From assembly GCF_001428065.1 (NCBI RefSeq), contig NZ_LMSE01000001.1, positions 52,656-116,655 of the forward strand: a stretch of 64,000 bases of DNA, given 5' to 3'. The stretch is from Nostocoides sp. Soil756. GTDB lineage: Bacteria; Actinomycetota; Actinomycetes; Actinomycetales; Dermatophilaceae. The notes under the pieces were generated by a model that did no database searches, was not told where the DNA came from, and saw only the letters and a program-made list of their open reading frames with translations. The translations under genes and the position numbers were made by a program. This document shows, piece after piece, positions 2,555-41,433 of the stretch (the first letter of the stretch is position 1; each line of letters starts with the position of its first letter).

Positions 2555-4426
2555 ATGGGGCACTACAAGAGCAACCTGCGCGACATCGAGTTCACCCTCT
2601 TCGAGGTGCTCGGTCGCGGGGACGTCCTGGGCTCCGGTCCCTACGCGGACCTCGACCCCGACACCGCGCGCGAGATGCTCAAGGAGGTCTCGCGCCTGGC
2701 CGAGCACGAGATCGCCGACTCCTTCGCCGACGCCGACCGCCATCCGCCGGTCTACGACCCGCAGACCCAGGCCGTGACGATGCCCGCCTCGTTCGCGACG
2801 TCCTTCGCCGCGTACCGCGACAGCGGCTTCTGGGCCATCGACCTGCCCGCCGAGCTCGACGGCACCGTCGCGCCGCCGAGCCTGCGCTGGGCCGTCAACG
2901 AGATGCTGCTCGGCGCCAACCCCGCGCTGGCGATGTTCGCGGCCTCCTACTCCTTCGCCAAGCTCCTGCACGAGCTCGGCACGCCCGAGCAGCAGCAGCT
3001 GGCCCGCTGGATCGTCGAGAAGGGCTGGCACTGCACGATGGTGCTCACCGAGCCCGACGCCGGCTCCGACGTCGGCGCCGGCCGCACCAAGGCCGTGCCG
3101 AACGCCGACGGCACCTGGACCCTCACCGGCGTCAAGCGCTTCATCACCAGCGCCGAGTCCGACCTGGTCGACAACGTCGTGCACTTCGTCCTGGCCCGGC
3201 CCGAGGGCGCGGGCCCCGGCACCAAGGGCCTGTCGCTCTTCATCCTGCCCAAGTACGCCGTCGACCTCGAGACCGGCGAGCTCGGCGAGCGCAACGGCGT
3301 CTACGTCACCAACGTCGAGAAGAAGATGGGCCTGAAGGTCTCCCCCACCTGCGAGGTCACCTTCGGCGGCGACGTGCCGGCCGTCGGTACCCTGCTCGGG
3401 GAGGTCCACGACGGCATCGCGCAGATGTTCCACGTCATCGAGAACGCGCGGATGATGGTGGGCACCAAGGCGATCGCCACCCTGTCGACCGGCTACCTCA
3501 ACGCGCTCGAGTACGCCAAGCAGCGCGTCCAGGGCGCCGACCTCACCCAGATGAGCGACAAGGCGGCGCCGCGCGTCACCATCACCCACCACCCCGACGT
3601 GCGCCGATCGCTGATGCTGCAGAAGGCCTACTCCGAGGGCCTGCGCGCGCTGGTGCTCTACACCGCGAGCCAGCAGGACGTCGTCGACCAGCACCGCCTC
3701 ACCACCGGCGACGCCGTGCCCGAGCCCGGCTCGGCCGCCGACATCGCCAACCGGGTCAACGACCTGCTGCTGCCGATCGTCAAGGGCCTGGGCTCCGAGC
3801 GGGCCTGGGTGCTGCTGGGCACCGAGTCGCTGCAGACCTTCGGCGGCTCCGGCTTCCTCCAGGACTACCCGGTCGAGCAGTACGTGCGCGACGCCAAGAT
3901 CGACACCCTCTACGAGGGCACCACGGCCATCCAGGGCATGGACTTCTTCTTCCGCAAGATCGTGCGCGACAAGGGCCAGGCCCTGACCCACCTCGCGACC
4001 CAGATGCAGGAGTTCGCCAAGGACCTCGGCCAGCACGGCGGCCGCATCGACCGCGAGCGCGAGCTGCTCGGGCAGGGCGTCGACGACGTGCAGGGGATCC
4101 TCGGCTACATGGTCGGCGAGCTGACCAAGGCCGACCCGCGCCAGGGCGGCGACGTCGCGAACCTCTACAAGGTCGGGCAGAACACCTCCCGGCTGCTCCT
4201 CGGCGCGGGCGACCTGGTGGTCGGCTGGCTCCTGCTGCGCCAGGCCGCGGTGGCGCTCGACGCGCTGGCCGCCGGCGCGCAGGGCAAGGACAAGGACTTC
4301 TACGAGGGCAAGGTCGCGGCGGCGCAGTTCTACGCCCGGCAGGTGCTGCCCCGGCTGGGCGCCGAGCGCGCCATGGCCGAGGCCACCGACAACGACCTGA
4401 TGGACGTGCCCGAGTCCGCGTTCTGA
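2555..4426 (+). CDS. Acyl-CoA dehydrogenase, long actinobacterial type
   Basis: A 623-residue FAD enzyme that introduces the 2,3-double bond into acyl-CoA, the first step of beta-oxidation. The N-terminus ([19 protein letters not shown]) marks the long 600-residue subgroup with an extra N-terminal and C-terminal domain. The FAD and substrate core contains [13 protein letters not shown], and the catalytic Glu is expected in LYEGTTAIQ near residue 453. The start has GAGAGGA 6 nt upstream. It converges on the acyl-CoA ligase gene, 21 bp between stops, and the pair suggests fatty-acid or branched acyl catabolism. The exact chain-length preference cannot be read from the sequence. Confidence 0.9.
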
Positions 4427-4447
4427 CCGGCGCGCAGCCGGGGCGGC

Positions 4448-5971
4448 TCAGGCGTCGAGGCGGTCGCGCAGCACCCGCTTGAGCAGCTTGCCGCTCTGGT
4501 TGCGCGGCAGCTCGTCGACGAACACGACCTTCTTGGGGACCTTGTAGGACGCCAGGCTGGTGCGCGCGTGGGCGATGATCGCCGCCTCGTCGACATCCTC
4601 GCCGGAGCGGCGGACCACCACGGCCGTGACCGCCTCGATCCAGCGCTCGTCGGGGGTGGCCACCACCGCGACCTCGGCGACGGCCGGATGGGTGTAGACG
4701 GCGTCCTCGACCTCTCGCGAGGCGACCAGCACGCCACCGGTGTTGATGACGTCCTTGATGCGGTCGACGACCGTGATGTAGCCCGCCTCGTCCCGCACGA
4801 CCATGTCGCCGGAGTGGAACCAGCCGTCGCGGAACGCGGCCTCGGTCTCGTCCGGCTTGTTCCAGTAGCCGATGCACAGCTGGGGCGAGCGGTAGAGCAG
4901 CTCGCCGCGCTCGCCGGCGGGGACGTCGGCGCCCTCCTCGTCGACCACCCTGGTCTCGACGAACAGCACCGTCCGCCCGCACGACTCGGGGCGCTCCTCG
5001 TGCTCGGCGGGCAGCAGCACGGTGGCCAGCGGGCCGATCTCGCTCTGCCCGAAGCAGTTGTAGAAGCCGATGTCGGGCAACCGCGCGGCCAGGCGGTCGC
5101 GCACCGGCCCCGGCATGATCGAGGCGCCGTAGTACGCCTTGCGCAGGCTGGTGAGGTCGGCGGTGGCCAGTGCCTCGTGGTTCGAGAGCGGCACCCAGAC
5201 CGTGGGCGCGAGGAACAGCGAGCGATGCCGGTCGGCCGCCACCCGGCGCAGGATCTCGGCCACGTCGGGCTTGGGCAGCAGGGTGTTGGTGCAGCCCCGG
5301 GCCAGCGACGGCAGGAGGAACACGTGCATCTGGGCCGAGTGGTAGAGCGGCATGCAGTGCAGCGGGTCGTCGTCCTCGGCGATCTCGAGCCCGGCGAGGC
5401 ACGACACGTACTCGTGCACCAGCGCGCGGTGCGTCATCATCGCGCCCTTGGGCGCCGAGGTGGTGCCCGAGGTGTAGAGCAGCTGCACCAGGTCGAGCTC
5501 GTCGACCTCGTGTTCGAGGGTCGGGACCTCGCCGGCGGCCCAGTGGGGCAGGACGGCGTCGTCGGTGCCGTGGAGCACCAGCACCTGCTCCAGCGCCGTG
5601 CGCTCGCGGACCTGCTCGACGCCCGCGCGCAGCGGCTCGTCGACGAGCACCACCCGGGCGCCGGAGTCGGTCAGCAGGTACTCGAGCTCGCCGCCGGTGA
5701 GGGCGAAGTTGACCGGCACGTGGACCAGCCCGGCCCGGGCGCAGCCGAGGAAGGCCAGCAGGTAGGCGTCGGAGTTCAGGCCCACCGTGGCCACGCGGTC
5801 ACCGTGGGCCAGCCCCAGCGAGAGGAGGTGCCCCGCGGCGCGGGTGACCCCGGCGTCGAGCTCGCGGTAGGTCCACTGCCGCTCGGCGAACCGCAGGGCG
5901 ACCTTGTCGCCGAACCGCTGTGCGCTGCGCCGGACGATGTCGTCGACGGTGCTCGACCGTGGGTCACCCAT
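4448..5971 (-). CDS. Acyl-CoA synthetase (AMP-forming)
   Basis: A 507-residue adenylating enzyme (ANL superfamily) that activates a carboxylic acid with ATP and CoA. The P-loop motif YTSGTTSAPKGAM lies at about residues 163-175, GYWNKPDET with GWFHSGDM near 365-385, and the C-terminal lysine loop in LPRNQSGKLLKR at the end, so the enzyme is full length. Start MGDPRSS at 5971. Its neighbour, the convergent acyl-CoA dehydrogenase, suggests the acid enters beta-oxidation. FadD-like, but the substrate (medium, long or aromatic acid) is not certain. Confidence 0.88.
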   Translation of the reverse strand: MGDPRSSTVDDIVRRSAQRFGDKVALRFAERQWTYRELDAGVTRAAGHLLSLGLAHGDRVATVGLNSDAYLLAFLGCARAGLVHVPVNFALTGGELEYLLTDSGARVVLVDEPLRAGVEQVRERTALEQVLVLHGTDDAVLPHWAAGEVPTLEHEVDELDLVQLLYTSGTTSAPKGAMMTHRALVHEYVSCLAGLEIAEDDDPLHCMPLYHSAQMHVFLLPSLARGCTNTLLPKPDVAEILRRVAADRHRSLFLAPTVWVPLSNHEALATADLTSLRKAYYGASIMPGPVRDRLAARLPDIGFYNCFGQSEIGPLATVLLPAEHEERPESCGRTVLFVETRVVDEEGADVPAGERGELLYRSPQLCIGYWNKPDETEAAFRDGWFHSGDMVVRDEAGYITVVDRIKDVINTGGVLVASREVEDAVYTHPAVAEVAVVATPDERWIEAVTAVVVRRSGEDVDEAAIIAHARTSLASYKVPKKVVFVDELPRNQSGKLLKRVLRDRLDA

Positions 5972-6033
5972 CCCCGGACCCTAGGCAGCGGGATCGGCGG
6001 GGGTCAAGCATCCGAACGGGGACCCGGACACGA

Positions 6034-6066
6034 CGACGGCCCGCCCCTGTCGGGGACGGGCCGTCG
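6034..6066 (-). terminator. Strong hairpin after the DUF6458 gene
   Basis: Arms CGACGGCCCG (6034-6043) and CGGGCCGTCG (6057-6066) pair perfectly and the stem extends inward with CCCC/GGGG around a TGT loop. It lies 25 bp past the stop of the minus-strand DUF6458 gene and in front of the acyl-CoA ligase. No T-run is visible, which is common for actinobacterial terminators. Confidence 0.6.
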
Positions 6067-6090
6067 GACGTGGTGCGGTGTCGCCGCCGG

Positions 6091-6342
6091 TCAGAGCGGG
6101 TCGACGTCGGTGCGGTCGACCCGGGAGCCGGTGGCGGGGTCGACGGTGGACTGACGGGTGGCGGTGTAGCCACGGCTGGTGCGACCGCGCATGGCGAAGG
6201 ACAGGATGATCGCCAGGAGGCCGGCGATCATCAGGATGATGCCGACGAGGCTGAGGTTGACGCCCGCGACGACGGTGGTCCCGACGGCGAAGAAGAGGAT
6301 CGCGCCGACGACGAGCAGGAAGATGCCGAGTCCGATGTACAT
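6091..6342 (-). CDS. DUF6458 family two-helix membrane protein
   Basis: An 83-residue protein with two hydrophobic helices (about residues 3-22 and 28-50, containing SLVGIILMIAGLLAIILSF) and a polar cytoplasmic-type tail rich in Thr, Arg and Asp. The pattern GLGIFLLVVGAILFFAV followed by GVNLSLVGIILMIAG is that of DUF6458, a family common in Actinobacteria with no known function. The start at 6342 has AGGAGA 6 nt upstream; longer upstream reading frames lack such a site. A possible promoter (TTCAAC, 18 nt, TAGAGT on the minus strand near 6385-6412) precedes it. Confidence 0.8.
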   Translation of the reverse strand: MYIGLGIFLLVVGAILFFAVGTTVVAGVNLSLVGIILMIAGLLAIILSFAMRGRTSRGYTATRQSTVDPATGSRVDRTDVDPL

Positions 6343-6458
6343 GTGGGTCTCCTGAGTGGCCGGGGTCGGATGGCCGACAACGCACTCTACCTGCGAAAAC
6401 GCCCCATGTTGAAGGTTGGTGCAGCCCTCTGCACCAGGGGGCCGGGCGTGGCCGCGGG

Positions 6459-6674
6459 CTAGACCCAGCCGCCGCGGTCGGTCATTCGGGTGTGCTGCGC
6501 GGCGGCGGTCTCGGCCGAGTACGGCGCGTCGGACGAGGCTCGCGCGTCGGACGAGGCTCGCGCCCCGACCCGGTCGTGGCGGCGCGCGATGTACTGGCGG
6601 GCCCACACGACGGCGCCCGCAACGGCGCCGAGCACCAGCAGTCCGAGCATCACCACGGCGAACGGTGTCGGCAC
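6459..6674 (-). CDS. Small single-pass membrane protein with a repeated RASSDA motif
   Basis: A 71-residue protein: one N-terminal helix (about residues 4-24, VVMLGLLVLGAVAGAVVW), a basic stretch, then the repeat RASSDA-RASSDA, encoded by an 18-bp tandem duplication at about 6527-6562. GTG start at 6674 with GGGGAG 5 nt upstream. No family recognised. It lies between DUF6458 and the FAD oxidase on the same strand and may be expressed on its own. Confidence 0.6.
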   Translation of the reverse strand: MPTPFAVVMLGLLVLGAVAGAVVWARQYIARRHDRVGARASSDARASSDAPYSAETAAAQHTRMTDRGGWV

Positions 6675-6748
6675 GGGGCTCCCCTCTCGTCGGCCCCGGC
6701 GGTGCGGGGTCCTCAGTGTGACGCGCGCGGGGGGGCGGCGTCCAGGCC

Positions 6749-8113
6749 TCAGACGAACGAGCCGGGGTTGAGGATGCCGTCGGGGTCGAGCGCGGCCTTG
6801 ACCCGGCGGTTCAGCGCCATCGCCGCGGGGCCGATCTGGTCCTCGAGGCAGCCGGCCTTGAGCCGCCCCACCCCGTGCTCACCGGTGATGGTGCCGCCAA
6901 GGGCGATCGCGGCGCGCATGACGTCGTCGAACGCCAGCCGGGCGCGGCGCTCGGAGTCGGGGTCGCCCGCGTCGTAGACGATGGCGGGGTGGGTGTTGCC
7001 GTCGCCGGCGTGGGCGACGACGGGGATCTCGACCTGGTGGCGCTGGGCGATGGCCTCGATCTCGGCGAGCAGGGCCGGCAGCTGCGGCACCGGGACGCCG
7101 ACGTCCTCGGGCAGGACGGCGCCGCGGGGCTCGAGCGCGGTGAAGTGCACGCGCCGGGCCTGGACGAACATCTCGCCCTCGGCCGGGTCGTCGGTGGCCT
7201 CGACGTCCTTGGCGCCGCACAGCTCGCAGGCGGCCACGATGGCGGCGACCTCCTCCTCGCGGGAGGCGCCCGGGGCGTCGGACTGGATGAGCAGCAGCGC
7301 GCCCGCGTCGCGGTCGAGACCCATCGGGCGGAAGTCCTCGACGGCGTTGATCGAGGCCCGGTCCATGAGCTCGACCATGCTGGCGCGCACGGTGCGGCCG
7401 AGCTCGATGACGGCGGCCGCGGCATCCGCGACCGTGGGGAACAACGCGACGACGGTGGAGGCCGGCTGCTGGGCCGGGACCAGGCGCAGCACGGCCCGGG
7501 TGACGATCCCGAGCGTCCCCTCGGAGCCGACGAAGAGCTTCAGCAGCGACAGGCCGGCGACGTCCTTGACGCGCTTGCCGCCGAGGGTGACGAGGGTGCC
7601 GTCGGCCAGCACGACGTCCATCCCCAGCACGTAGTCGGTGGTGACTCCGTACTTGACGCAGCACAGGCCCCCGGCGTTGGTGGCGATGTTGCCGCCGATC
7701 GAGCAGATCTCGAACGAGCTGGGGTCCGGCGGGTACCAGAGGCCCTCGGCCGCGGCGGCCCGCTTGACCTCGACGTTCAGGGCGCCCGGCTCGACCACGG
7801 CCACCCGCGCCGCGGTGTCGATCTCGACGGCGCGCATCCGCTCCAGGCTCAGGGTGACGCAGCCGTCGACGGCCATCGAGCCGCCCGAGAGCGACGTGCC
7901 GGCACCGCGCGGGACGACGCCGATGCCGTGCCGCGTGGCCCAGCGCAGCGTCGCCTGGACGTGCTCGGCCGACTCCGCGCGGACAGCGGCGCGGGGAGTC
8001 CCGACGCTCGCGTCGTGCGTCCAGTCGTAGCGGTACTTCTCGAGCGCGGCGGGGTCGGTGACGACGACTCCGGCGGGGAGGGCGTCGGCGAGCTCCTTGA
8101 CGACATCGTCCAT
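6749..8113 (-). CDS. FAD-linked oxidase, GlcD / D-lactate dehydrogenase type
   Basis: A 454-residue flavoprotein of the PCMH-FAD family that oxidises 2-hydroxy acids such as glycolate or D-lactate. The FAD-binding domain contains GAGTSLSGGSM near residue 75 and NIATNAGGLCCVKYG near 145. The C-terminal FAD-oxidase domain carries HAGDGNTHP and TGEHGVGRLK, the metal- and substrate-binding signature of GlcD, and ends in DPDGILNPGSF. Start MDDVVKEL at 8113 follows a G-rich ribosome site. It lies 37 bp downstream of the nitrilase on the same strand, so the two are probably cotranscribed. No GlcE or GlcF partner is nearby, so a single-subunit enzyme is likely. Confidence 0.85.
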   Translation of the reverse strand: MDDVVKELADALPAGVVVTDPAALEKYRYDWTHDASVGTPRAAVRAESAEHVQATLRWATRHGIGVVPRGAGTSLSGGSMAVDGCVTLSLERMRAVEIDTAARVAVVEPGALNVEVKRAAAAEGLWYPPDPSSFEICSIGGNIATNAGGLCCVKYGVTTDYVLGMDVVLADGTLVTLGGKRVKDVAGLSLLKLFVGSEGTLGIVTRAVLRLVPAQQPASTVVALFPTVADAAAAVIELGRTVRASMVELMDRASINAVEDFRPMGLDRDAGALLLIQSDAPGASREEEVAAIVAACELCGAKDVEATDDPAEGEMFVQARRVHFTALEPRGAVLPEDVGVPVPQLPALLAEIEAIAQRHQVEIPVVAHAGDGNTHPAIVYDAGDPDSERRARLAFDDVMRAAIALGGTITGEHGVGRLKAGCLEDQIGPAAMALNRRVKAALDPDGILNPGSFV

Positions 8114-33710: not shown

Positions 33711-34142
33711 CTAGGCCGGCACCCCGGCGCGGCGCTTCTCCGATCCTGACCGGGTGCCCGCCGGCCGGTCGGCGAGCTTGCCGACGCACGGCGGGATGAC
33801 GGCCGCCGCCCCGTGCGCCCGGGCGCGGTACTCGCTGGGGGTGACCCCCATCAGCGCCGTGAACCGGCTCGAGAACGACCCCAGCGAGGTACAGCCCACC
33901 GCCATGCACGCGTCGGTGACCGACACGTCACCGTGCCGCAGCAGGGCGGCCGCCCGCTCGATGCGGCGGGTCATCAGGTGCTGGTAGGGCGTCTCGTCGT
34001 AGGCCTCGCGGAACATCCGGTGGAAGTGTCCCGGCGACATCAGGGCCTCGGCGGCGAGCGCCGGCACGTCGAGCGGCTGGGCGTAGTCGCGGTCCATCCG
34101 GTCGCGGGCGCGGCGGAGGCGCACGAGGTCGTCGCGGTGCAC
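33711..34142 (-). CDS. AraC-family transcriptional regulator, short form
   Basis: A 143-residue protein that is little more than the AraC DNA-binding domain. Two helix-turn-helix units are visible: DVPALAAEALMSPGHFHRMF and SVTDACMAVGCTSLGSFSSRFTALMGVTPSEYR, the latter matching the AraC signature. There is no ligand-binding domain, so the effector may be sensed by the adjacent VOC protein. I take the GTG at 34142; the frame continues upstream to 34217 but that part overlaps the cyd operator region. It heads the regulator-VOC pair and is divergent from cydA. Confidence 0.8.
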   Translation of the reverse strand: MHRDDLVRLRRARDRMDRDYAQPLDVPALAAEALMSPGHFHRMFREAYDETPYQHLMTRRIERAAALLRHGDVSVTDACMAVGCTSLGSFSSRFTALMGVTPSEYRARAHGAAAVIPPCVGKLADRPAGTRSGSEKRRAGVPA

Positions 34143-34218
34143 CCGGTCAGTGTGGCACCGGGATGCCGCTGCCCCACGCCCGTGCGTCGGGTCACCGGGG
34201 CACCCCTGGCGTCCCACC

Positions 34219-34254
34219 TACGACGTTGTGTAGTTTGTACTACGCACCGTCGTA
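34219..34254. promoter_or_regulatory. BlaI/MecI-type tandem operator before cydA
   Basis: A 36-bp symmetrical structure: TACGACG, 4 nt, GTAGT, 4 nt, ACTAC, 4 nt, CGTCGTA. It can be read as one large dyad or as two tandem sites, TACGAC-gttgt-GTAGT and TACTAC-gcacc-GTCGTA. The TACTAC/GTAGTA half sites are those of MecI/BlaI/CopY repressors, and a gene of that family closes the cyd operon (40095). It ends 26 nt before the cydA ATG, where binding would block the promoter. The AraC-VOC unit on the other side could also be affected. Confidence 0.65.
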
Positions 34255-34280
34255 TCAGACCGCACCCGCAGGAGCCCCGC

Positions 34281-35738
34281 ATGGGATCGTCGCTCGACGT
34301 CGCCCGGTGGCAGTTCGCCATCACGACCGTCTACCACTTCCTCTTCGTCCCCGTGACGATCGGGATGTCGGCCATCGTGGCCTGGTTCCACCTCCGCTGG
34401 GTGCGCACCCACCGCCCCGAGTACCTGCGTCTGACGAAGTTCTTCGGCAAGCTGTTCATGATCAACTTCGCGCTCGGCCTGGTCACGGGCATCGTGCAGG
34501 AGTTCCAGTTCGGGATGAACTGGTCGGACTACAGCCGCTTCGTCGGTGACATCTTCGGCGCACCGCTGGCCTTCGAGGCGCTCCTGGCGTTCTTCCTGGA
34601 GTCGACGTTCCTGGGCGTGTGGATCTTCGGCTGGGGCCGCATCCCCGAGCGCCTGCACGCGGCCTCGATGTGGCTGGTGCACCTCGGGACGGTCCTCTCG
34701 GGCTACTTCATCCTCGCGGCGAACTCGTTCATGCAGAACCCGGTCGGCTACCGCTTCAACCCCGAGACGGGCCGGGCCGAGATGGCCGACTTCCTCGCGG
34801 TGCTCACCAACAAGGTCCAGCTCGTCACCTTCCCGCACGTCATCCTGTCGGCCTACATGGTCGGTGGCGCGGTGGTCATGGGCGTCTCGCTGTGGCTGCT
34901 GCGCCGCGAGGCCGGCACCGACGACGACCGGATGTACCGCCACGGCGTGCGCGTCGGGGCCGTCGTGGCGCTCGTCGCATCCCTCGGGGTGGTCGTCTCG
35001 GGCGACCTCCAGGGCAAGATCATGACCGAGGTCCAGCCGATGAAGATGGCCGCCGCCGAGGCCCTCTACGACACCACCAGCCACGCGCCGTTCTCGGTGC
35101 TGTCGGTGGGCCCGCTCGACGGCAGCGAGGCCACCCGCATCATCGCCGTGCCCGGGCTGCTCTCCTTCCTCGGCACCGGCGACGTGAACGGCACCGTCGA
35201 GGGCATCAACGACCTCAAGGGCAGCGAGCGCGCACTGGCCGAGAAGGTGGTCGCGCAGTACGGCCCGCAGATGGCGCCCCTGGTCCTCACCGACGACTAC
35301 ACCCCGATCGTGCCGGTGGCCTACTGGACCTTCCGGCTGATGATGGGCCTGGGCTTCCTCACGATGCTGCTGGCCGCGCTCACCCTGTGGGCGACCCGCG
35401 GCACCCGCGTCCCCCGCGCCCGCTGGTGGCTGCTGGTCGCAGCCGTGACCCCGCTGCTGCCGGTCTTCGCCAACAGCTTCGGCTGGATCTTCACCGAGAT
35501 GGGGCGCCAGCCCTGGCTGGTCTACGGCCTGATGACCACCGCCACCGGCGTCTCGCCGTCGGTGAGCGTCGCCGAGGTGTGGGTCTCGATGGCCGTCTAC
35601 ACCCTCCTCTACGCGGTGCTGGCCGTCGTCGAGGTCAAGCTCTTCCTCACCTACGTCCGCCGTGGCGCCGAGCCCTTCGTCGACCCGGCCACCCCCGCGG
35701 ACGCCCACGAGGACGCCCCGCTCCAGTTCGCCTACTGA
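34281..35738 (+). CDS. cydA: Cytochrome bd oxidase subunit I
   Basis: A 485-residue quinol oxidase subunit in the cytoplasmic membrane that oxidises menaquinol and reduces oxygen with high affinity. His19 (TTVYHFLF) is the haem d-type ligand position, TFPHVILSAY carries another haem ligand, MMGLGF near residue 355 the Met region and MGRQPWLVYG the conserved GRQPW motif. The Q-loop region after about residue 245 is short. Start ATG 34281 has AGGAG 8 nt upstream. First gene of cydABDC-blaI-M56. Confidence 0.95.
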   Translation: MGSSLDVARWQFAITTVYHFLFVPVTIGMSAIVAWFHLRWVRTHRPEYLRLTKFFGKLFMINFALGLVTGIVQEFQFGMNWSDYSRFVGDIFGAPLAFEALLAFFLESTFLGVWIFGWGRIPERLHAASMWLVHLGTVLSGYFILAANSFMQNPVGYRFNPETGRAEMADFLAVLTNKVQLVTFPHVILSAYMVGGAVVMGVSLWLLRREAGTDDDRMYRHGVRVGAVVALVASLGVVVSGDLQGKIMTEVQPMKMAAAEALYDTTSHAPFSVLSVGPLDGSEATRIIAVPGLLSFLGTGDVNGTVEGINDLKGSERALAEKVVAQYGPQMAPLVLTDDYTPIVPVAYWTFRLMMGLGFLTMLLAALTLWATRGTRVPRARWWLLVAAVTPLLPVFANSFGWIFTEMGRQPWLVYGLMTTATGVSPSVSVAEVWVSMAVYTLLYAVLAVVEVKLFLTYVRRGAEPFVDPATPADAHEDAPLQFAY

Positions 35739-35754
35739 CCCCAGGGACACCGAC

Positions 35755-36786
35755 ATGGACACTCTCCAGCTCGTCTGGTTCGCACTCATCGGCCTGCTGT
35801 GGGCCGGCTACCTCGTCCTCGAGGGCTTCGACTTCGGGGTGGGGGCGCTCCTCCCCGTCCTCGGGGCCGGCGAGGACGCCGCCGACACCGAGAAGCGCCG
35901 CCGCGTCATGCTCACCACCATCGGACCCCACTGGGACGGCAACGAGGTCTGGCTCATCACCGCCGGCGGCGCCACCTTCGCGGCGTTCCCCGAGTGGTAC
36001 GCGACGATGTTCTCGGCCTTCTACCTGCCGCTGCTGGTGCTGCTGGTGGCGTTGATCGTGCGCAACATGGGCTTCGAGTATCGCCACAAGCGCGACGACG
36101 TCACGTGGCGCCGCCGCTGGGACGCCGCCATCATCGGCGGCTCGATCGCGGCGCCCCTGCTGGTCGGGGTCGCTCTCACCGACATCGTGCGAGGGCTACC
36201 CATCGACCGCGACCTCGAGTACACCGGCTCGCTGCTCACCCTCCTGGACCCTCTCGGGCTGCTGGGCGGGGTGACCGTGGTGGCCCTCTCCCTGACCCAC
36301 GGCGCGTTCTTCCTGGCGCTCAAGACCACCGGCACGATCCGCGAGGACGCCCGCCGGCTGGGCACGACCCTGGGCGCGGTCACCGCCGTGCTGGCCGTGG
36401 TGACCCTCGGCTGGCTGGGCCTGCTCACCGGGTCGGCGTGGTCGTGGGCCACGACGGTGGTCGCCGCGGTGGCGCTGCTGGCGGCGGTCGCGGCCAACGC
36501 CCGCGGCCGCGAGGGCTGGGCCTTCACGGGGACGGCGGTCACGGCCGCCGCGACGGTGGCCACGTACTTCCTGGCCCTGTTCCCGGACGTGATGCCGACG
36601 ACCCTCGACGGCGGCCGGTCGCTCACCATCGCCAACGCCTCGAGCAGCCCGATGACCCTGCAGATCATGACCTGGGCGGCCGCCGTCTTCACGCCGATCG
36701 TGCTCCTCTACACCGGCTACACCTACTACGCCTTCCGCCGGCGGATCGGGACCCAGCACATCCCCGAGCCGGTCGCGGTCGGCTGA
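35755..36786 (+). CDS. cydB: Cytochrome bd oxidase subunit II
   Basis: A 343-residue partner of CydA with about eight or nine helices. LEGFDFGVGALLP near residue 22 and GPHWDGNEVWLITAGGATFAAFP near 58 are the family signature, including the acidic residue in EGFD thought to serve a proton path. It follows cydA by 16 bp with its own ATG. Complete at both ends. Confidence 0.95.
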   Translation: MDTLQLVWFALIGLLWAGYLVLEGFDFGVGALLPVLGAGEDAADTEKRRRVMLTTIGPHWDGNEVWLITAGGATFAAFPEWYATMFSAFYLPLLVLLVALIVRNMGFEYRHKRDDVTWRRRWDAAIIGGSIAAPLLVGVALTDIVRGLPIDRDLEYTGSLLTLLDPLGLLGGVTVVALSLTHGAFFLALKTTGTIREDARRLGTTLGAVTAVLAVVTLGWLGLLTGSAWSWATTVVAAVALLAAVAANARGREGWAFTGTAVTAAATVATYFLALFPDVMPTTLDGGRSLTIANASSSPMTLQIMTWAAAVFTPIVLLYTGYTYYAFRRRIGTQHIPEPVAVG

Positions 36787-36796
36787 GGTCCGCGCC

Positions 36797-38392
36797 GTGC
36801 GGCCCTTCGACCCGCGCCTCCTGGCCGTCGCGCCCGCCGCCCGCCGCCCCGTCGTGGCGGTGGCGGTGGTCGGCGTCCTCCAGGGCCTCGCCACGGTGGC
36901 CACCGCCTTCGCCCTGGCGGCCCTGGTGGTCGCAGTGGTCGACGGCACGCCCGTGGGCGCTCCGGCCGGGTGGCTCGTGGCTTTGCTGGGGACGCGCTCC
37001 GCGCTGGGCTGGGCGGCCGAGCGGTCGGCGGCGCGCGCCGGGGTCGAGGTCACGGCGGCGCTGCGTCGTGCCCTGCTGGAGCACTGGCTGCGGGTGCCGG
37101 CCGAGCGGCGCCCGGACCCCGACCGCGGGGCCACCCTGGCCGGGCAGGGGGTCGCCACCGTCGAGCCGTACGCCGCGCGCTTCCTGCCGGCGCTGGTGGC
37201 GGGCGCGGTCGTGCCGGTGCTGGCGCTCGGCGCCCTGGTGTGGGTCGACCCGGTGAGCGCGCTCGTGGTGGCCCTGACCCTGCCGCTGCTCCCGGCCTTC
37301 GCGGCCCTGATCGGCGCCGCCACCCGCGACGAGACGCAGCGTCGGTGGCGCGCGCTGTCCTCGCTCGCGGGCCACTTCACGGATGTGGTGCGCGGGCTGC
37401 CGACCCTGGTGGGATACGGACGGGCCGAGCGCCAGGTCGAGGTCGTCGCCGAGGTCAGCGGCGCCCACCGCCGGGCCACGATGCGCACGCTGCGCCTGGC
37501 CTTCCTGTCATCGGCGGCCCTGGAGCTGCTGGCGTCGATCTCGGTGGCCATCGTGGCCGTCACGGTCGGGCTCCGGCTCACCCACGGCACGCTCGACCTC
37601 GGCACCGGCCTGCTCGCGATCCTGCTGGCGCCCGAGGCCTACTGGCCGATCCGCCGGGTCGGGGCCGAGTTCCACGCCGCGGCCGACGGGGCCGAGGCCG
37701 TGGCCGACGCCCTCGACGAGCTCGCCGCCGGGCCCGCCGGCCGCACGACACCGGCCGGGACGCCGGCCGCCGAGGCGCTCGGTGTCCGGCTGCGCGGCGT
37801 CCACTACTCGTATCCCGGAGCATCCATACCGGTGCTCCGGGGGCTGGACCTGGACGCCGGGCCCGGTCTCACCGTCCTGACCGGGCCCTCCGGCGCCGGC
37901 AAGTCGACCGTCCTGGAGCTGGCGGCCGGCCTGCGCACCCCCTCCGCCGGCACCGTCACGGCGGGCCACGCCCACCTGGTGACGCAGCGCCCGTTCCTGC
38001 CCGCCGGCACCGTGCGCGACGCCCTGCGACTCGGCAACGACGCTCCCGACGCCGACCTCTGGGCCGCGCTGCGCCGAGTGGGCCTCGAGGGGTTCGTCGC
38101 GGCCCTGCCGGCCGCGCTCGACACCCCGCTGGGCGACGAGGGCGTCGGGTTCTCGGCCGGCCAGCGGGCCCGGGTGGCGCTGGCCCGCGCAACGCTGTCG
38201 ACCGCGCCGGTGCTGCTGGTCGACGAGCCGACCGCCCACCTCGACGGCCCCGGGGCCGAGATCGTCCACGAGCTGCTGTCCGAGCTGGCCGAGCGGCGTG
38301 CCGTGCTCGTCGTGACCCATCGCCCCGAGCTCGTGGCGCGGGCCCACCGGCACGTGGGCCTCGAGCCCCGGGCAGTGGGGGCGACGGCATGA
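36797..38392 (+). CDS. cydD: Thiol reductant ABC exporter subunit CydD
   Basis: A 531-residue ABC transporter with a six-helix membrane domain (residues 1-300) and an ATPase domain: Walker A GPSGAGKST near residue 362, signature FSAGQRARVALARA, Walker B LLVDEPTAHLD and the His loop VTHRPE. With CydC it exports glutathione-like thiols, or haem by later reports, needed to assemble cytochrome bd. GTG start 10 bp after cydB. A GGAGCA-type palindrome (37814-37841) is read as codons just before the ATPase domain. Confidence 0.9.
   Translation: MRPFDPRLLAVAPAARRPVVAVAVVGVLQGLATVATAFALAALVVAVVDGTPVGAPAGWLVALLGTRSALGWAAERSAARAGVEVTAALRRALLEHWLRVPAERRPDPDRGATLAGQGVATVEPYAARFLPALVAGAVVPVLALGALVWVDPVSALVVALTLPLLPAFAALIGAATRDETQRRWRALSSLAGHFTDVVRGLPTLVGYGRAERQVEVVAEVSGAHRRATMRTLRLAFLSSAALELLASISVAIVAVTVGLRLTHGTLDLGTGLLAILLAPEAYWPIRRVGAEFHAAADGAEAVADALDELAAGPAGRTTPAGTPAAEALGVRLRGVHYSYPGASIPVLRGLDLDAGPGLTVLTGPSGAGKSTVLELAAGLRTPSAGTVTAGHAHLVTQRPFLPAGTVRDALRLGNDAPDADLWAALRRVGLEGFVAALPAALDTPLGDEGVGFSAGQRARVALARATLSTAPVLLVDEPTAHLDGPGAEIVHELLSELAERRAVLVVTHRPELVARAHRHVGLEPRAVGATA
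37814..37841. repeat. Dispersed GGAGCA palindrome inside cydD
   Basis: CCCGGAGCA (37814-37822) and TGCTCCGGG (37833-37841) pair perfectly over 9 bp around a 10-nt loop. It closely resembles unit 2 of the array at 9112. It encodes PGASIPVLRG at the start of the CydD ATPase domain, close to where an aromatic A-loop residue (YSYPG) sits. Confidence 0.6.
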
Positions 38393-40092
38393 GCGCCCCC
38401 GCCGCCCTCCGGAACCCCGTCACGGTCGTGCGCCCCACCCGGGCCACGGTCCTCGGCGGCCTGCTCGGCGGGGCCGCCACCACGTCCGGCATCGCCCTGA
38501 CCGCGACCTCGGGCTGGCTCGTGGTCCGCGCCAGCGAGCGCCCGGTCATCCTCACCCTGCTGGCGGCCATCGTCGCGGTCCGCGCGTTCGGGATGGCGCG
38601 GCCCTACTTCCGCTACCTCGAGCGGCTGGTCTCGCACGACGCCGCGCTCGCTGAGCTGGCCGACCGCCGGGTGGCGGTGTTCAGCGCCCTGGTGCCCCTG
38701 ACCCCCGCCCGGCTCGGCCGGCGCTCGCGGTCGGCGGTGCTCACGGGGGTCGTCGAGGATCTCACCGACGTGGTCGAGGCCCAGGTCCGGGTCACCGTCC
38801 CGCTGGTCTCCGGGGCGCTCGCGGGCCTGGGGGCCGCGGCCCTCACGGCGTGGTTCGCCCCCACGCTCGGGCTGGTCGTGGCCGCGCTGCTGGTGGTGCT
38901 GGCCCTCGGCTGCGTGGTCGCCTGGCACGCCGAGTCGACCTCGCGCGACGCGCTGCTGGCGGCCCGGGCCGAGGTGGCCCGGGTGGGCGACCTCGTCGCG
39001 CGCCAGGCCGGAGAGCTGAAGGCCATCGGCGCCGAGCGGGACGCGCTGCGCGCGCTCGGCGCCGCCCACGCCACGTGGCGCGCGGCGGTGGCGCGGCAGA
39101 GCCGGGGTCGGGCCCTGGTGGCGGCGCTGCTGCCGCTGGGGACGGCCGCCGCCACCGTCGCGGCGGCGCTGCTGGTGGACCCGGCCACGGTGGGCGCGCC
39201 GGTCGCAGCCCTGCTCGTGCTCGTCCCGGTGGCCGTGGGCGAGGCCCTGGCGCCGTTGGTCGACACCATGCGCGCGCTGGCCCGGGCCCAGGGCAGCAGC
39301 GCCCGCCTCACCGCCCTGCTCGACCAGGAGCCGGCCGTGCACGACCCGGCCGGCCCAACGACGTCCTCGGCCCAGCATCCGGAGCACGTGGATGGATGCT
39401 CCGAGCCGCGGGCCACGGGAGGCGCGCCGGTCGTCCGGCTCGAGGCGGTCACCGCGTCCTGGACTGGCGAGCGCACCGCGCTTGCACCCACCGACCTCGC
39501 GCTCCGCCCGGACCGGCACGTCGCCGTCGTCGGGCCCAACGGCTCGGGCAAGAGCACCCTGCTGGCGGTCCTCGCGCGCGCGCTCGACGTGACCGGGGGG
39601 CGCCACACCCGTGACGGGGTCGACGTGCGCGGGCTTCCCCTGGCCACCGCCCGCGCCGACATCGCCGTGGTCGACGACGAGCCGCACGTCTTCGCCGGGT
39701 CGCTCGCCGCGAACCTCCGGCTCGCCCGCCCGGACGCCGACGACGACGCGCTGCGCCATGCCCTCGCCCTCGCCGGCCTCGGCCCCTGGCTGACCGAGCT
39801 CCCCGACGGGCTCGACACCCGGCTCGGCACCGGCGGCCGCGGCGTCTCGGGCGGCGAGCGCACCCGGCTCGGCATCGCCCGCGCCGTGCTGGCGGAGCGG
39901 GCCGTCGTCCTGCTCGACGAACCCACCGCGCACCTCGACGACGCAACGGCCACCGCCGTGCTCGATGATGTCCTGGGCGCCACCCGCGAGCGCGCGGTCG
40001 TCCTCGTGAGCCACCGGCCCGAGGCGCTGAACCGCTTCGACCACGTCCTCGACCTCGGGGCCCACCCGTCGTCACGACCCGACCAGGAGTAG
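38389..40092 (+). CDS. cydC: Thiol reductant ABC exporter subunit CydC
   Basis: A 567-residue ABC half-transporter. The membrane domain spans residues 15-310; a low-complexity linker (SAQHPEHVDGCSEPRATGG) containing a dispersed palindrome leads to the ATPase domain, with Walker A GPNGSGKST near residue 382, signature VSGGERTRLGIARAVL, Walker B VVLLDEPTAHLDD and the His loop VSHRPE. Its ATG overlaps the CydD stop by 4 nt. The two form the heterodimer needed for bd oxidase maturation. Confidence 0.92.
   Translation: MSAPAALRNPVTVVRPTRATVLGGLLGGAATTSGIALTATSGWLVVRASERPVILTLLAAIVAVRAFGMARPYFRYLERLVSHDAALAELADRRVAVFSALVPLTPARLGRRSRSAVLTGVVEDLTDVVEAQVRVTVPLVSGALAGLGAAALTAWFAPTLGLVVAALLVVLALGCVVAWHAESTSRDALLAARAEVARVGDLVARQAGELKAIGAERDALRALGAAHATWRAAVARQSRGRALVAALLPLGTAAATVAAALLVDPATVGAPVAALLVLVPVAVGEALAPLVDTMRALARAQGSSARLTALLDQEPAVHDPAGPTTSSAQHPEHVDGCSEPRATGGAPVVRLEAVTASWTGERTALAPTDLALRPDRHVAVVGPNGSGKSTLLAVLARALDVTGGRHTRDGVDVRGLPLATARADIAVVDDEPHVFAGSLAANLRLARPDADDDALRHALALAGLGPWLTELPDGLDTRLGTGGRGVSGGERTRLGIARAVLAERAVVLLDEPTAHLDDATATAVLDDVLGATRERAVVLVSHRPEALNRFDHVLDLGAHPSSRPDQE
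39380..39403. repeat. Dispersed GGAGCA palindrome in the CydC linker
   Basis: CGGAGCA (39380-39386) and TGCTCCG (39397-39403) pair over 7 bp around 10 nt. It is translated as part of a linker between membrane and ATPase domains, a place where an inserted repeat could be tolerated. Confidence 0.6.
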
Positions 40093-40094
40093 CC

Positions 40095-40544
40095 ATGCCG
40101 CACTCGGCCCACGCCCCTCGCCTCGGCGACCTCGAGCGGGTCGTCATGGACCGTCTCTGGGAGAGCACCGTGGCCGGGGGCGACGGGTTCGCCGGCGTCA
40201 CCGTCCGCGAGGTCCACGAGGCCCTCGAGAAGGACCGGGAGATCGCCTATACGACGGTGATGACGGTGCTCGACCGGCTCGCGAAGAAGGACCTGGTCAC
40301 CCGCGAGCGCGACGGGCGCGCCTGGCGCTATCTGCCCGCCGACACCCGCGAGGCCCTCACCGCGCGCACCATGCGTCGCACCCTCGACGACATGGAGGTC
40401 ACCGACCGCCGTTCGGCGCTGCTGCACTTCCTCGACGGCGCCAGCACCGACGAGATCGCCGACCTCAAGGCCGCCCTGGCCGAGGTCGAGGCCCGCAGCG
40501 ACCGCCCGGCATCCCGGGGCGCGCGCTCCCGCCGGCCCCGCTGA
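40095..40544 (+). CDS. BlaI/MecI/CopY-family repressor
   Basis: A 149-residue winged-helix repressor. The N-terminal domain reads GDLERVVMDRLWES then VTVREVHEALEKDREIAYTTVMTVLDRLAKKDLVTRERDGRAWRYLPA, the hallmark of BlaI/MecI, where the recognition helix is AYTTVMTVLDRLA. A dimerisation helix region follows (LTARTMRRTLDDM) and a basic tail. It begins 2 bp after the cydC stop. In this family a partner M56 peptidase cleaves the repressor on signal; such a peptidase is the next gene. Confidence 0.9.
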   Translation: MPHSAHAPRLGDLERVVMDRLWESTVAGGDGFAGVTVREVHEALEKDREIAYTTVMTVLDRLAKKDLVTRERDGRAWRYLPADTREALTARTMRRTLDDMEVTDRRSALLHFLDGASTDEIADLKAALAEVEARSDRPASRGARSRRPR

Positions 40545-40590
40545 CCGGCCGAGCGTTCGCCCCGGCGCGCCCGGCTGCCACGATGGTGCC

Positions 40591-41433
40591 GTGGTCCCGC
40601 TCGCCCTCGCCGGGGTGGCCGTCGCGCTGGTCTGGCTGGCGCCCGGCCTCCTCGCCCGCCCGCGCCGTCTCCGGCGCGCGCCCCGCGCCGCCCTCGTGGC
40701 CTGGCAGGCGGTCTCCCTCGGCGGGGTCCTGGCCGCCCTCGCCGTGGCCCCGGCGGTGCTGCCGCTGGTGCTGGAGGGCGACGACCTGCGCTCCCACCCC
40801 TGGCTGGTCGCTCTCGCCCTGCTCGTCACCGCGGTGGTGCTGGGGCGCCTCCTGCTGTCGGGGCACCGGGTCGGCACCCGCATCCGGCAGGCGCGCACCG
40901 AGCATCGTGAGCTCGTCGACATCCTCGGTGAGCACGACCGCGATGGGCTGGTCGTGCTGCAGCACCCCACGCCGACGGCCTACTGCATCCCGGGCCGCGG
41001 CCCGCGGGTGGTCCTGACCCGCGGGGTGCTCGACGCCCTCCCCGACGAGCAGCTGGCCGCGGTGGTGGCCCACGAGCGCGCCCATTTGCGGGCCCGGCAC
41101 GACCTGCTGCTGGAGTTCTTCACCGTGCTGCACGAGTCGGTGCCCCCGGCGCTGCGCTCGGCCACCGCGCTGGCGGAGGTGCGCCTGCTGGTCGAGGCCC
41201 TGGCCGACCGGGCCGCCGTGCGGCGCAGCGGGGCGGTGGCCACGGCCCGGGCCCTGGTGACGGTGGCCGCGGGGCGGGCGCCCGCGGGAGCGATGGCCGC
41301 GAGCACCTCGGCTCCCGTACGCCTGCACCTGCTGGCCCTGGGGCCGCAACCCGTCACCGCAACGCTGGCCTACGCCCTGGCCGTCGTGGCCGTGGCCCTG
41401 CCGCTGGCCCTGCTCGGGTTCGCCTGGGCGTGA
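40591..41433 (+). CDS. M56-family membrane metallopeptidase, BlaR1/MecR1-like without sensor
   Basis: A 280-residue membrane peptidase. Two to three helices precede the zinc motif HERAH near residue 160 (VVAHERAHLRARHDLLLEFF), with a probable third ligand Glu in LVEALADRAAV, and a last helix closes the protein. There is no penicillin-binding sensor domain, as is usual for actinobacterial M56 partners of BlaI. It follows the repressor by 46 bp and is likely to relieve repression of the cyd operon. The signal is unknown. GTG start at 40591. Confidence 0.85.
   Translation: MVPLALAGVAVALVWLAPGLLARPRRLRRAPRAALVAWQAVSLGGVLAALAVAPAVLPLVLEGDDLRSHPWLVALALLVTAVVLGRLLLSGHRVGTRIRQARTEHRELVDILGEHDRDGLVVLQHPTPTAYCIPGRGPRVVLTRGVLDALPDEQLAAVVAHERAHLRARHDLLLEFFTVLHESVPPALRSATALAEVRLLVEALADRAAVRRSGAVATARALVTVAAGRAPAGAMAASTSAPVRLHLLALGPQPVTATLAYALAVVAVALPLALLGFAWA

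Follow-up and report, generated by a model that had tools for sequence, protein, structure and literature searches.

The window analyzed here is a stretch of 64,000 nucleotides from Nostocoides sp. Soil756 (contig NZ_LMSE01000001.1, positions 52,656 to 116,655), and the system in question is a cytochrome bd gene row, cydABDC, followed by genes for a BlaI/MecI-type repressor and a membrane metalloprotease and preceded by a tandem operator. On the forward strand, cydA (34281..35738; PF01654, Cyt_bd_oxida_I, 542 bits) and cydB (35755..36786; PF02322, Cyt_bd_oxida_II, 353 bits) encode subunits I and II of the oxidase, and cydD (36797..38392; PF00664 and PF00005) and cydC (38389..40092; PF00005) encode the two halves of an ABC exporter, in the same order as in relatives. 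The repressor gene (40095..40544; PF03965, Penicillinase_R, 90.3 bits against a cut-off of 22.6) begins after a gap of 2 bp, the cydC stop being at 40092 and the repressor start at 40095. It is followed on the same strand by the gene for a BlaR1-like membrane metalloprotease that carries HERAH and lacks a sensor domain (40591..41433; PF01435 above and PF05569 below cut-off). An earlier note on this DNA had described just this arrangement, and both the coordinates and the Pfam matches agree with it. The repressor is the single Penicillinase_R match in the window's whole genome (3.47 Mb in nine contigs). Its recognition helix spans about residues 51-58 (AYTTVMTV), and its translation contains no cysteine, so the repressor itself would not sense metals or thiols through cysteines.

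Two sites, to which no strand is assigned, lie before the cydA ATG at 34281. Site 1, TACGACGTTGTGTAGT (34219-34234; TACGAC-GTTGT-GTAGT), matches TACKAC-N5-GTMGTA at 11 of 12 letters, and site 2, TACTACGCACCGTCGTA (34238-34254; TACTAC-GCACC-GTCGTA), matches it at all 12; the second starts 19 bp after the start of the first, with TTG between the two. The pair had been described as TACKAC-N5-GTMGT(A), a description that holds for the coordinates and for the right site and falls one letter short at the left site, which ends in T and not A. The inverted arms at 34219-34234 and 34239-34254 are 88% complementary. A search of both strands of the window with a 16-mer, allowing at most one mismatch, returned four matches, all of them at the cydA operator, and in the whole genome there are three exact TACKAC-N5-GTMGTA sites versus none for a reversed control pattern.

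The association of operator, repressor, and cydA was examined in two samples that were drawn differently and overlap partly, with some species in common. Sample (a) consists of 80 named loci around relatives of the BlaI protein, the best 80 of 260, and sample (b) of 198 genomes of the order, with a BlaI match in 83 and a CydA match in 183; the latter covers 100 of the 114 BlaI matches outside the window's own genome, from 82 genomes, the omitted 14 being weaker second or third matches. The loci and genomes compared carry L- and G-numbers, respectively, G000 being the window's genome. BlaI was considered linked to cydA when it lay within 7 kb, and an operator was called at a match of at least 11 of 12 letters to TACKAC-N5-GTMGTA or its dialect (see below), within 250 bp before cydA in sample (a). 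Counting one locus per genome and excluding the window's own, BlaI is linked to cydA in 68 of the 82 order genomes with a BlaI match, divergent from cydA in 58 cases and downstream of it, as in the window, in 10. The operator is found in 65 of the 67 linked cydA upstream regions that could be read (60 of them perfect; L156 was excluded as its contig ends at cydA), and in 0 of 40 cydA upstream regions from order genomes without a BlaI match. These controls are 40 of about 102 such genomes with CydA, taken as the top-scoring CydA matches with G167 omitted. First-order shuffles of the linked upstream regions reach the operator threshold in 10 of 3350 cases. In sample (a), cydA is present in 27 of the 80 loci, and a site precedes it in 27 of 27. 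The expectation that the dyad would stand before cydA across relatives with a linked repressor was thus largely borne out. A chance dyad, which the window alone would allow, was rejected on the comparative counts (65/67 versus 0/40).

The order of the genes varies in sample (a). The window's order, cydABDC-BlaI-M56, recurs in Phycicoccus, Pedococcus, and Kytococcus; Ornithinimicrobium sediminis has BlaI-M56-cydABDC; and BlaI is divergent from cydA in Phytoactinopolyspora, Nocardioides caldifontis, Marmoricola, and Propioniciclava. Across 12 double-site loci of Phycicoccus and its relatives, the arms of the operator are 96% identical, the spacers 62%, and the two flanks 50% and 47%, which is the pattern that would be expected of a bound dyad. 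Within the family, all 26 site-bearing genomes tested have a strong BlaI match (E at most 1.2e-31), and of seven family genomes without an exact site, five have no BlaI match and one (G199) has a weak match. A phylum sample of 246 genomes includes 100 with a BlaI match, and in at least 6 of these (counted by eye) the match is close to cydA. All such cases belong to the window's class, so the BlaI-cyd module is not typical of the phylum as a whole. Taken together, it is very probable, from these conserved associations, that the BlaI repressor, the operator, and cyd belong together.

Other regulators may act on the same promoters. A Rex-like site (TTGTGA-N6-TCACAA, at most one mismatch) occurs in 0 of 67 BlaI-linked cydA upstream regions and in 4 of the 40 controls without a BlaI match, and in three such controls (L256, L257, L267) the inner TGTGA-N6-TCACA part is exact before cydA. 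The CRP-type pattern TGTGA-N6-TCACA is found with at most one mismatch in 1 of 67 linked regions and 6 of 40 controls, and with at most two mismatches in 19 of 67 (shuffles 5.4) and 11 of 40 (shuffles 2.4). Since the CRP-type matches exceed the shuffles in each group, further cyd regulators are likely in linked and control genomes alike.

The operator occurs in two dialects, TACKAC-N5-GTMGTA (dialect A, 37 linked loci) and TTCTAC-N5-GTAGAA (dialect B, 28 linked loci), and the dialect splits with residues 52 and 56 of the predicted BlaI recognition helix. All 37 dialect A loci have the helix segment AYTTVMTV, and all 28 dialect B loci have a residue other than Y at position 52 and either L or H, in place of M, at position 56. 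The BlaI proteins of the two dialects form separate clades, which argues for one or a few switches of helix and operator and not for 65 independent events. Dialect A was also found in six genomes of four other families, where 9 of 10 exact sites are, by position, at cyd or blaI. Where blaI is apart from cyd, or has space before it, it may have a site of its own (L016, L017, L023, L316, L322, and L329, with L322 representing the L023 contig). At L016, from an uncultured Tetrasphaera (2827-7098), operator, BlaI, and M56 stand at the same place, with no cydABDC between operator and blaI and with flanks as in the window (glyoxalase and AraC types on one side, AIM24 and BioB types on the other, named by likeness to the window's proteins); this suggests a loss or a gain of the circuit's cargo. 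Two genomes without a CydA match, G113 and G071 (L206 6903 and L211 6928), have a dialect B BlaI with an M56-like neighbor and a site just before blaI.

The protease partner is 280 residues long, with four hydrophobic stretches and HERAH at residues 161-165. It scores 43.4 bits with Peptidase_M48, above the cut-off of 20.3, and 21.6 bits with Peptidase_M56, below the cut-off of 31; H161, E162, H165, E202, and D206 are the same in all of 32 proteins compared. In an AlphaFold2 model (mean pLDDT, the predicted local distance difference test, of 92), the loop between helices 2 and 3 has about 8 residues and the last helix spans 254-279. The best VIA-align match is S. aureus BlaR1 (Z 10.8 over 213 residues, root mean square deviation 6.5, with model residues 5-240 on BlaR1 3-289), and BlaR1 entries fill the top four rows (Z 9.2-10.8), followed by ZMPSTE24 at Z 8.4; such Z scores are middling for helical proteins, and Foldseek gives BlaR1 an E-value of only 0.17. 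The protein is, as modeled, a membrane zinc protease of BlaR1-like arrangement. Neither Pfam nor the 280-residue model reveals a penicillin-binding sensor domain, and there would be no room for one because the protein ends at helix 254-279, whereas BlaR1 chains have 531-556 residues. It is likely that this protease is the antirepressor of its BlaI partner. At L037, L063, and L069, a VIT-type membrane protein (named by reading) follows the cyd-linked BlaI in the place of M56.

The three exact sites of the window's genome precede cydA, a gene of sulfide:quinone oxidoreductase (SQR) type, and a gene for a 195-residue membrane protein. The site before the last lies about 70 bp upstream (L002, gene at 1589-2176), and that before the 381-residue flavoprotein of SQR type lies 7 bp from its start (L003). 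The flavoprotein matches PDB 8dhk at E 2e-28 and reaches 446 bits with the type III SQR model, whose cut-off of 525 is passed by its relative at L139 (590 bits). Among nine relatives in the genus, a site precedes SQR in seven and the 195-residue gene in six. Altogether, 10 genus genomes hold 34 exact sites: 8 lie about 5.8 kb before blaI and were counted as cydA sites (cydA itself was seen in the window, L128, and L131), 8 precede SQR, 9 in seven genomes precede the 195-residue gene, 7 precede none of the three, and two (G312 C1:1839676 and G330 C538) are unplaced.

In other genera of the family, the 195-residue gene has a site in six further genomes (L117, L296, L302, L309, L320, L330), and sites also precede SQR (L299), pyruvate phosphate dikinase (PPDK; L318, L319, L323, L328, L332), a NarK-type transporter (L112 and L113, L305, L306, L333), universal stress proteins (L111, L303), and polyphosphate kinase 2 (L321). 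A DoxX-like gene, named by sequence reading and without a Pfam match to its protein, is another recurrent target. Names rest on Pfam at L328 and L332 for PPDK, and on TIGR00886 below cut-off (L113, L305, L333) or MFS_1 alone (L306) for the NarK type. Of 38 extra sites from genomes with many sites, 23 precede a recurrent class (195-residue gene 5, PPDK 5, DoxX-like 4, blaI 4 with one of them 221 bp away, NarK-type 3, SQR 1, universal stress protein 1), and 15 are single or without clear class. For dialect B, three genomes (G021, G054, G153) have the cyd site only, and three have sites outside cyd (five in G005, four in G114, and two in G041, against 2, 1, and 1 for the reversed control). One of those in G114 (L340) is 96 bp upstream of a gene for a universal stress protein, and one in G041 (L348 1501-2358), the single genome with such a case, is 4 bp ahead of the bcc complex gene qcrC, so that BlaI may act there on the main respiratory branch; L338 in G005 and two further sites in G114 fall before no clear class of gene. 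As judged from predicted sites, cyd is the core target, and the target set grew in some lineages.

A reading that we regard as probable brings these elements together as repression of cydABDC by BlaI on its dyads, a respiratory trigger, and release through cleavage of the repressor by the protease. BlaI-type dimers on both sites would block cydA transcription and keep cydABDC repressed, along with blaI and the protease gene, which stand at the end of the same gene row and are presumably co-transcribed with it. The trigger would be a respiratory chain short of oxygen or with its main oxidase blocked, for example by sulfide. The protease would be activated from inside the membrane or from the cytosol and would cut the repressor, perhaps near H111-F112, a position guessed from alignment to the staphylococcal protein. 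Release would free cyd and, in the window's genome, the SQR-type gene and the small membrane-protein gene as well. Because release would also yield more repressor and protease, as the last genes of the presumed transcript, the switch could be self-limiting. We consider a respiratory signal fairly probable because the operator keeps company with an alternative oxidase, with sulfide oxidation and nitrate transport, and with PPDK and universal stress proteins, targets that would suit low oxygen or poisoning of the main oxidase. The sulfide resistance for which cytochrome bd is known makes the pairing of cyd and SQR in the genus notable.

A number of observations limit this reading or weigh against it. 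The window alone is weak evidence because shuffled windows have a mean of 1.46 one-mismatch matches and 10 of 100 reach four or more. No sigma-70-like promoter was recognized near the operator by our scan, and a terminator-like hairpin on the forward strand (34207-34228; one found, shuffle mean 0.0) overlaps site 1, probably as a by-product of the dyad. The split of helix and operator coincides with two BlaI clades, in a tree that rests on 138 columns only and whose deep forks are weak. Two linked loci, L210 and L231, have no operator before cydA; the upstream region of L210 holds TCTAC-N6-GTAGA, which may be a degenerate site. In the family, G216, the seventh of the genomes without an exact site, has a strong BlaI, and G034 and G080 have no BlaI match yet one exact site each, neither before cydA. 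In G312, the closest relative seen (BlaI 95% identical), the 17-mer of the window's site 2 is 149 kb away from blaI (C1:1839676 versus C1:1988815), possibly through a rearrangement that split operator from repressor. Neither G198 nor G290 has a site before SQR or the 195-residue gene. Lone extra sites prove little because the reversed pattern yields 0 to 6 hits per genome in 149 family genomes; a bare 17-mer was accordingly rejected as proof of a target, and only recurring target classes were retained. In the presumed cut region, the repressor has H-F at the position of N-F in the alignment with S. aureus BlaI, N-F being what we take to be the known cut site there. Finally, no M56 match stands beside blaI at L032, L037, L048, L063, L064, and L069, and the protease is therefore not universal.

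These six loci, which do have BlaI, cyd, and operator, bring up an alternative in which BlaI represses cyd and is released by another ligand or protease, the M56 neighbor having a different job. Two loci of the order survey could point the same way, as the M56 match of L162 is 4.4 kb from blaI and that of L177 is in the opposite direction. However, 67 of the 68 linked order loci have an M56 match no more than 600 bp from blaI, and L016 retains BlaI and M56 together though cyd is absent, so that release without this protease seems unlikely to us.

Less probable still is that the same repressor-operator circuit answers to a beta-lactam or cell-envelope signal, as the earlier note had proposed and as staphylococcal BlaR1-BlaI does. 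The protease model does resemble BlaR1, and an eLife study states that mycobacterial BlaR has no sensor domain, yet BlaI is tied to the beta-lactam response (PMC5473688). However, the protein of the window has 280 residues against 531-556 for BlaR1, with a loop of about 8 residues joining helix 2 to helix 3, and no recurrent target that could be named is a beta-lactamase or cell-wall gene. With the sensor absent and the nameable recurrent targets being respiratory, sulfur, transport, and energy genes, the antibiotic reading was rejected as first choice. It is highly improbable that some other regulator, for instance the divergent AraC-family protein, owns the dyad and that BlaI is a mere neighbor: the AraC-family gene starts beside the operator in the window (33711..34217, reverse strand; PF12833; its longest reading frame starts 2 bp from the operator) and in L016, but operator and cyd-linked BlaI co-occur across families with BlaI mostly divergent (58/68), the dialect splits with the BlaI helix, and L316, L322, and L329 have a site before blaI itself.

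Among known systems, the nearest solved repressor by sequence is 2g9w (E 3e-27), which we take to be M. tuberculosis BlaI (Rv1846c). The BlaI-BlaR pair of that species (Rv1846c-Rv1845c) resembles the one described here in its sensor-less protease and in having respiratory genes as stated targets, and differs in that blaC is also a target there. According to PMC5473688, M. tuberculosis BlaI binds the cytochrome bd and ATP synthase promoters (citing Sala 2009) and also represses the beta-lactamase gene blaC; repression of Rv1303, which is co-transcribed with the atp genes, is reported in another paper (PMC12565901). In five Mycobacterium-group loci (L036, L050, L051, L059, L073), none of the stretches examined contains cydA. 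In L050, L051, and L073 the site before blaI is TACTAT-N5-TACGTA, from which that of L059 differs by one letter; when sites of this type were searched for in four mycobacterial genomes, control counts were as high in three. The S. aureus BlaI-BlaR1 and MecI-MecR1 systems likewise combine a winged-helix repressor with a membrane zinc protease, and the repressor matches S. aureus BlaI and MecI at E 6e-4 and 4e-3. In contrast to those systems, there is no sensor domain here, and the predicted target is a respiratory oxidase and not a beta-lactamase or PBP2a. No beta-lactamase or PBP2a gene is among the three exact-site targets of the window's genome, inexact sites being unlisted genome-wide. The curated NCBIfam models BlaI_of_BCL, MecI_of_mecC, and BlaI_of_MRSA give 32.3, 26, and 19.7 bits, versus cut-offs of 180, 250, and 250, and the curated CopY_TcrY model gives 35.8 against 121.95. 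CopY has a C-terminal cysteine motif, in contrast to the cysteine-free repressor found here. The TAC..GTA half-site dyad of the BlaI/MecI family is found at the target promoter, by sequence and by conservation. In Streptomyces and others, cyd is under Rex-type control; the target operon is the same, and Rex-like sites are lacking at BlaI-linked cydA as described above.

The earlier note knew of no description of such an arrangement for cyd. This stands in part: that BlaI touches cyd is not new, since an earlier publication places BlaI at the cytochrome bd promoter (PMC5473688), and we found no description in the open PMC literature of the cyd-embedded BlaI-M56 module, its two dialects, its spread over the order and some neighboring groups, or its SQR, NarK, and PPDK targets. 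On the comparative evidence, the module is real, conserved, and functional-looking. It provides, for the control of cyd in dozens of genomes, a candidate repressor, an operator in two dialects, and a protease partner that can be tested. Cytochrome bd allows bacteria to respire at low oxygen and makes them resistant to sulfide, nitric oxide, and drugs blocking the main oxidase. Could it be, then, that in a large group of Actinomycetes BlaI and a sensor-less BlaR1-like protease form a switch dedicated to respiratory stress, working next to Rex and DosR or in their place, in which the protease reads the state of the chain (quinol redox, oxygen, sulfide) inside the membrane, and that beta-lactam systems are a side branch that gained a sensor? 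We put this forward tentatively, as somewhat short of an even prospect. The module also suggests a possible reason why mycobacterial BlaI touches respiratory genes, namely that the older function of sensor-less pairs may have to do with respiration and not with antibiotics.

Some minor observations concern the other targets. The 195-residue protein, which has no Pfam or NCBIfam match, shows hydrophobic stretches near both ends by reading, and its gene is preceded by a site in 13 of the genomes seen. At the SQR loci L139, L146, L148, and L151, SQR is followed by DsrC/TusE-like and DsrE-like genes (named by reading, with one weak DsrE-type Pfam hit), so that the DsrE-like gene of these relatives is two genes downstream of SQR. 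In the window's genome, residues 1-330 of the SQR protein are fused in frame to the end of a DsrE-like gene (L003 1525-2670, G000:C4), which reflects either an internal deletion that removed the C-terminus of SQR along with the DsrC-like gene or a fault in the assembly. The SQR gene of G268 (L143 2525-3694) lacks about 80 internal residues and has its end out of frame. Two of the eight SQR genes predicted to be under operator control thus look broken.

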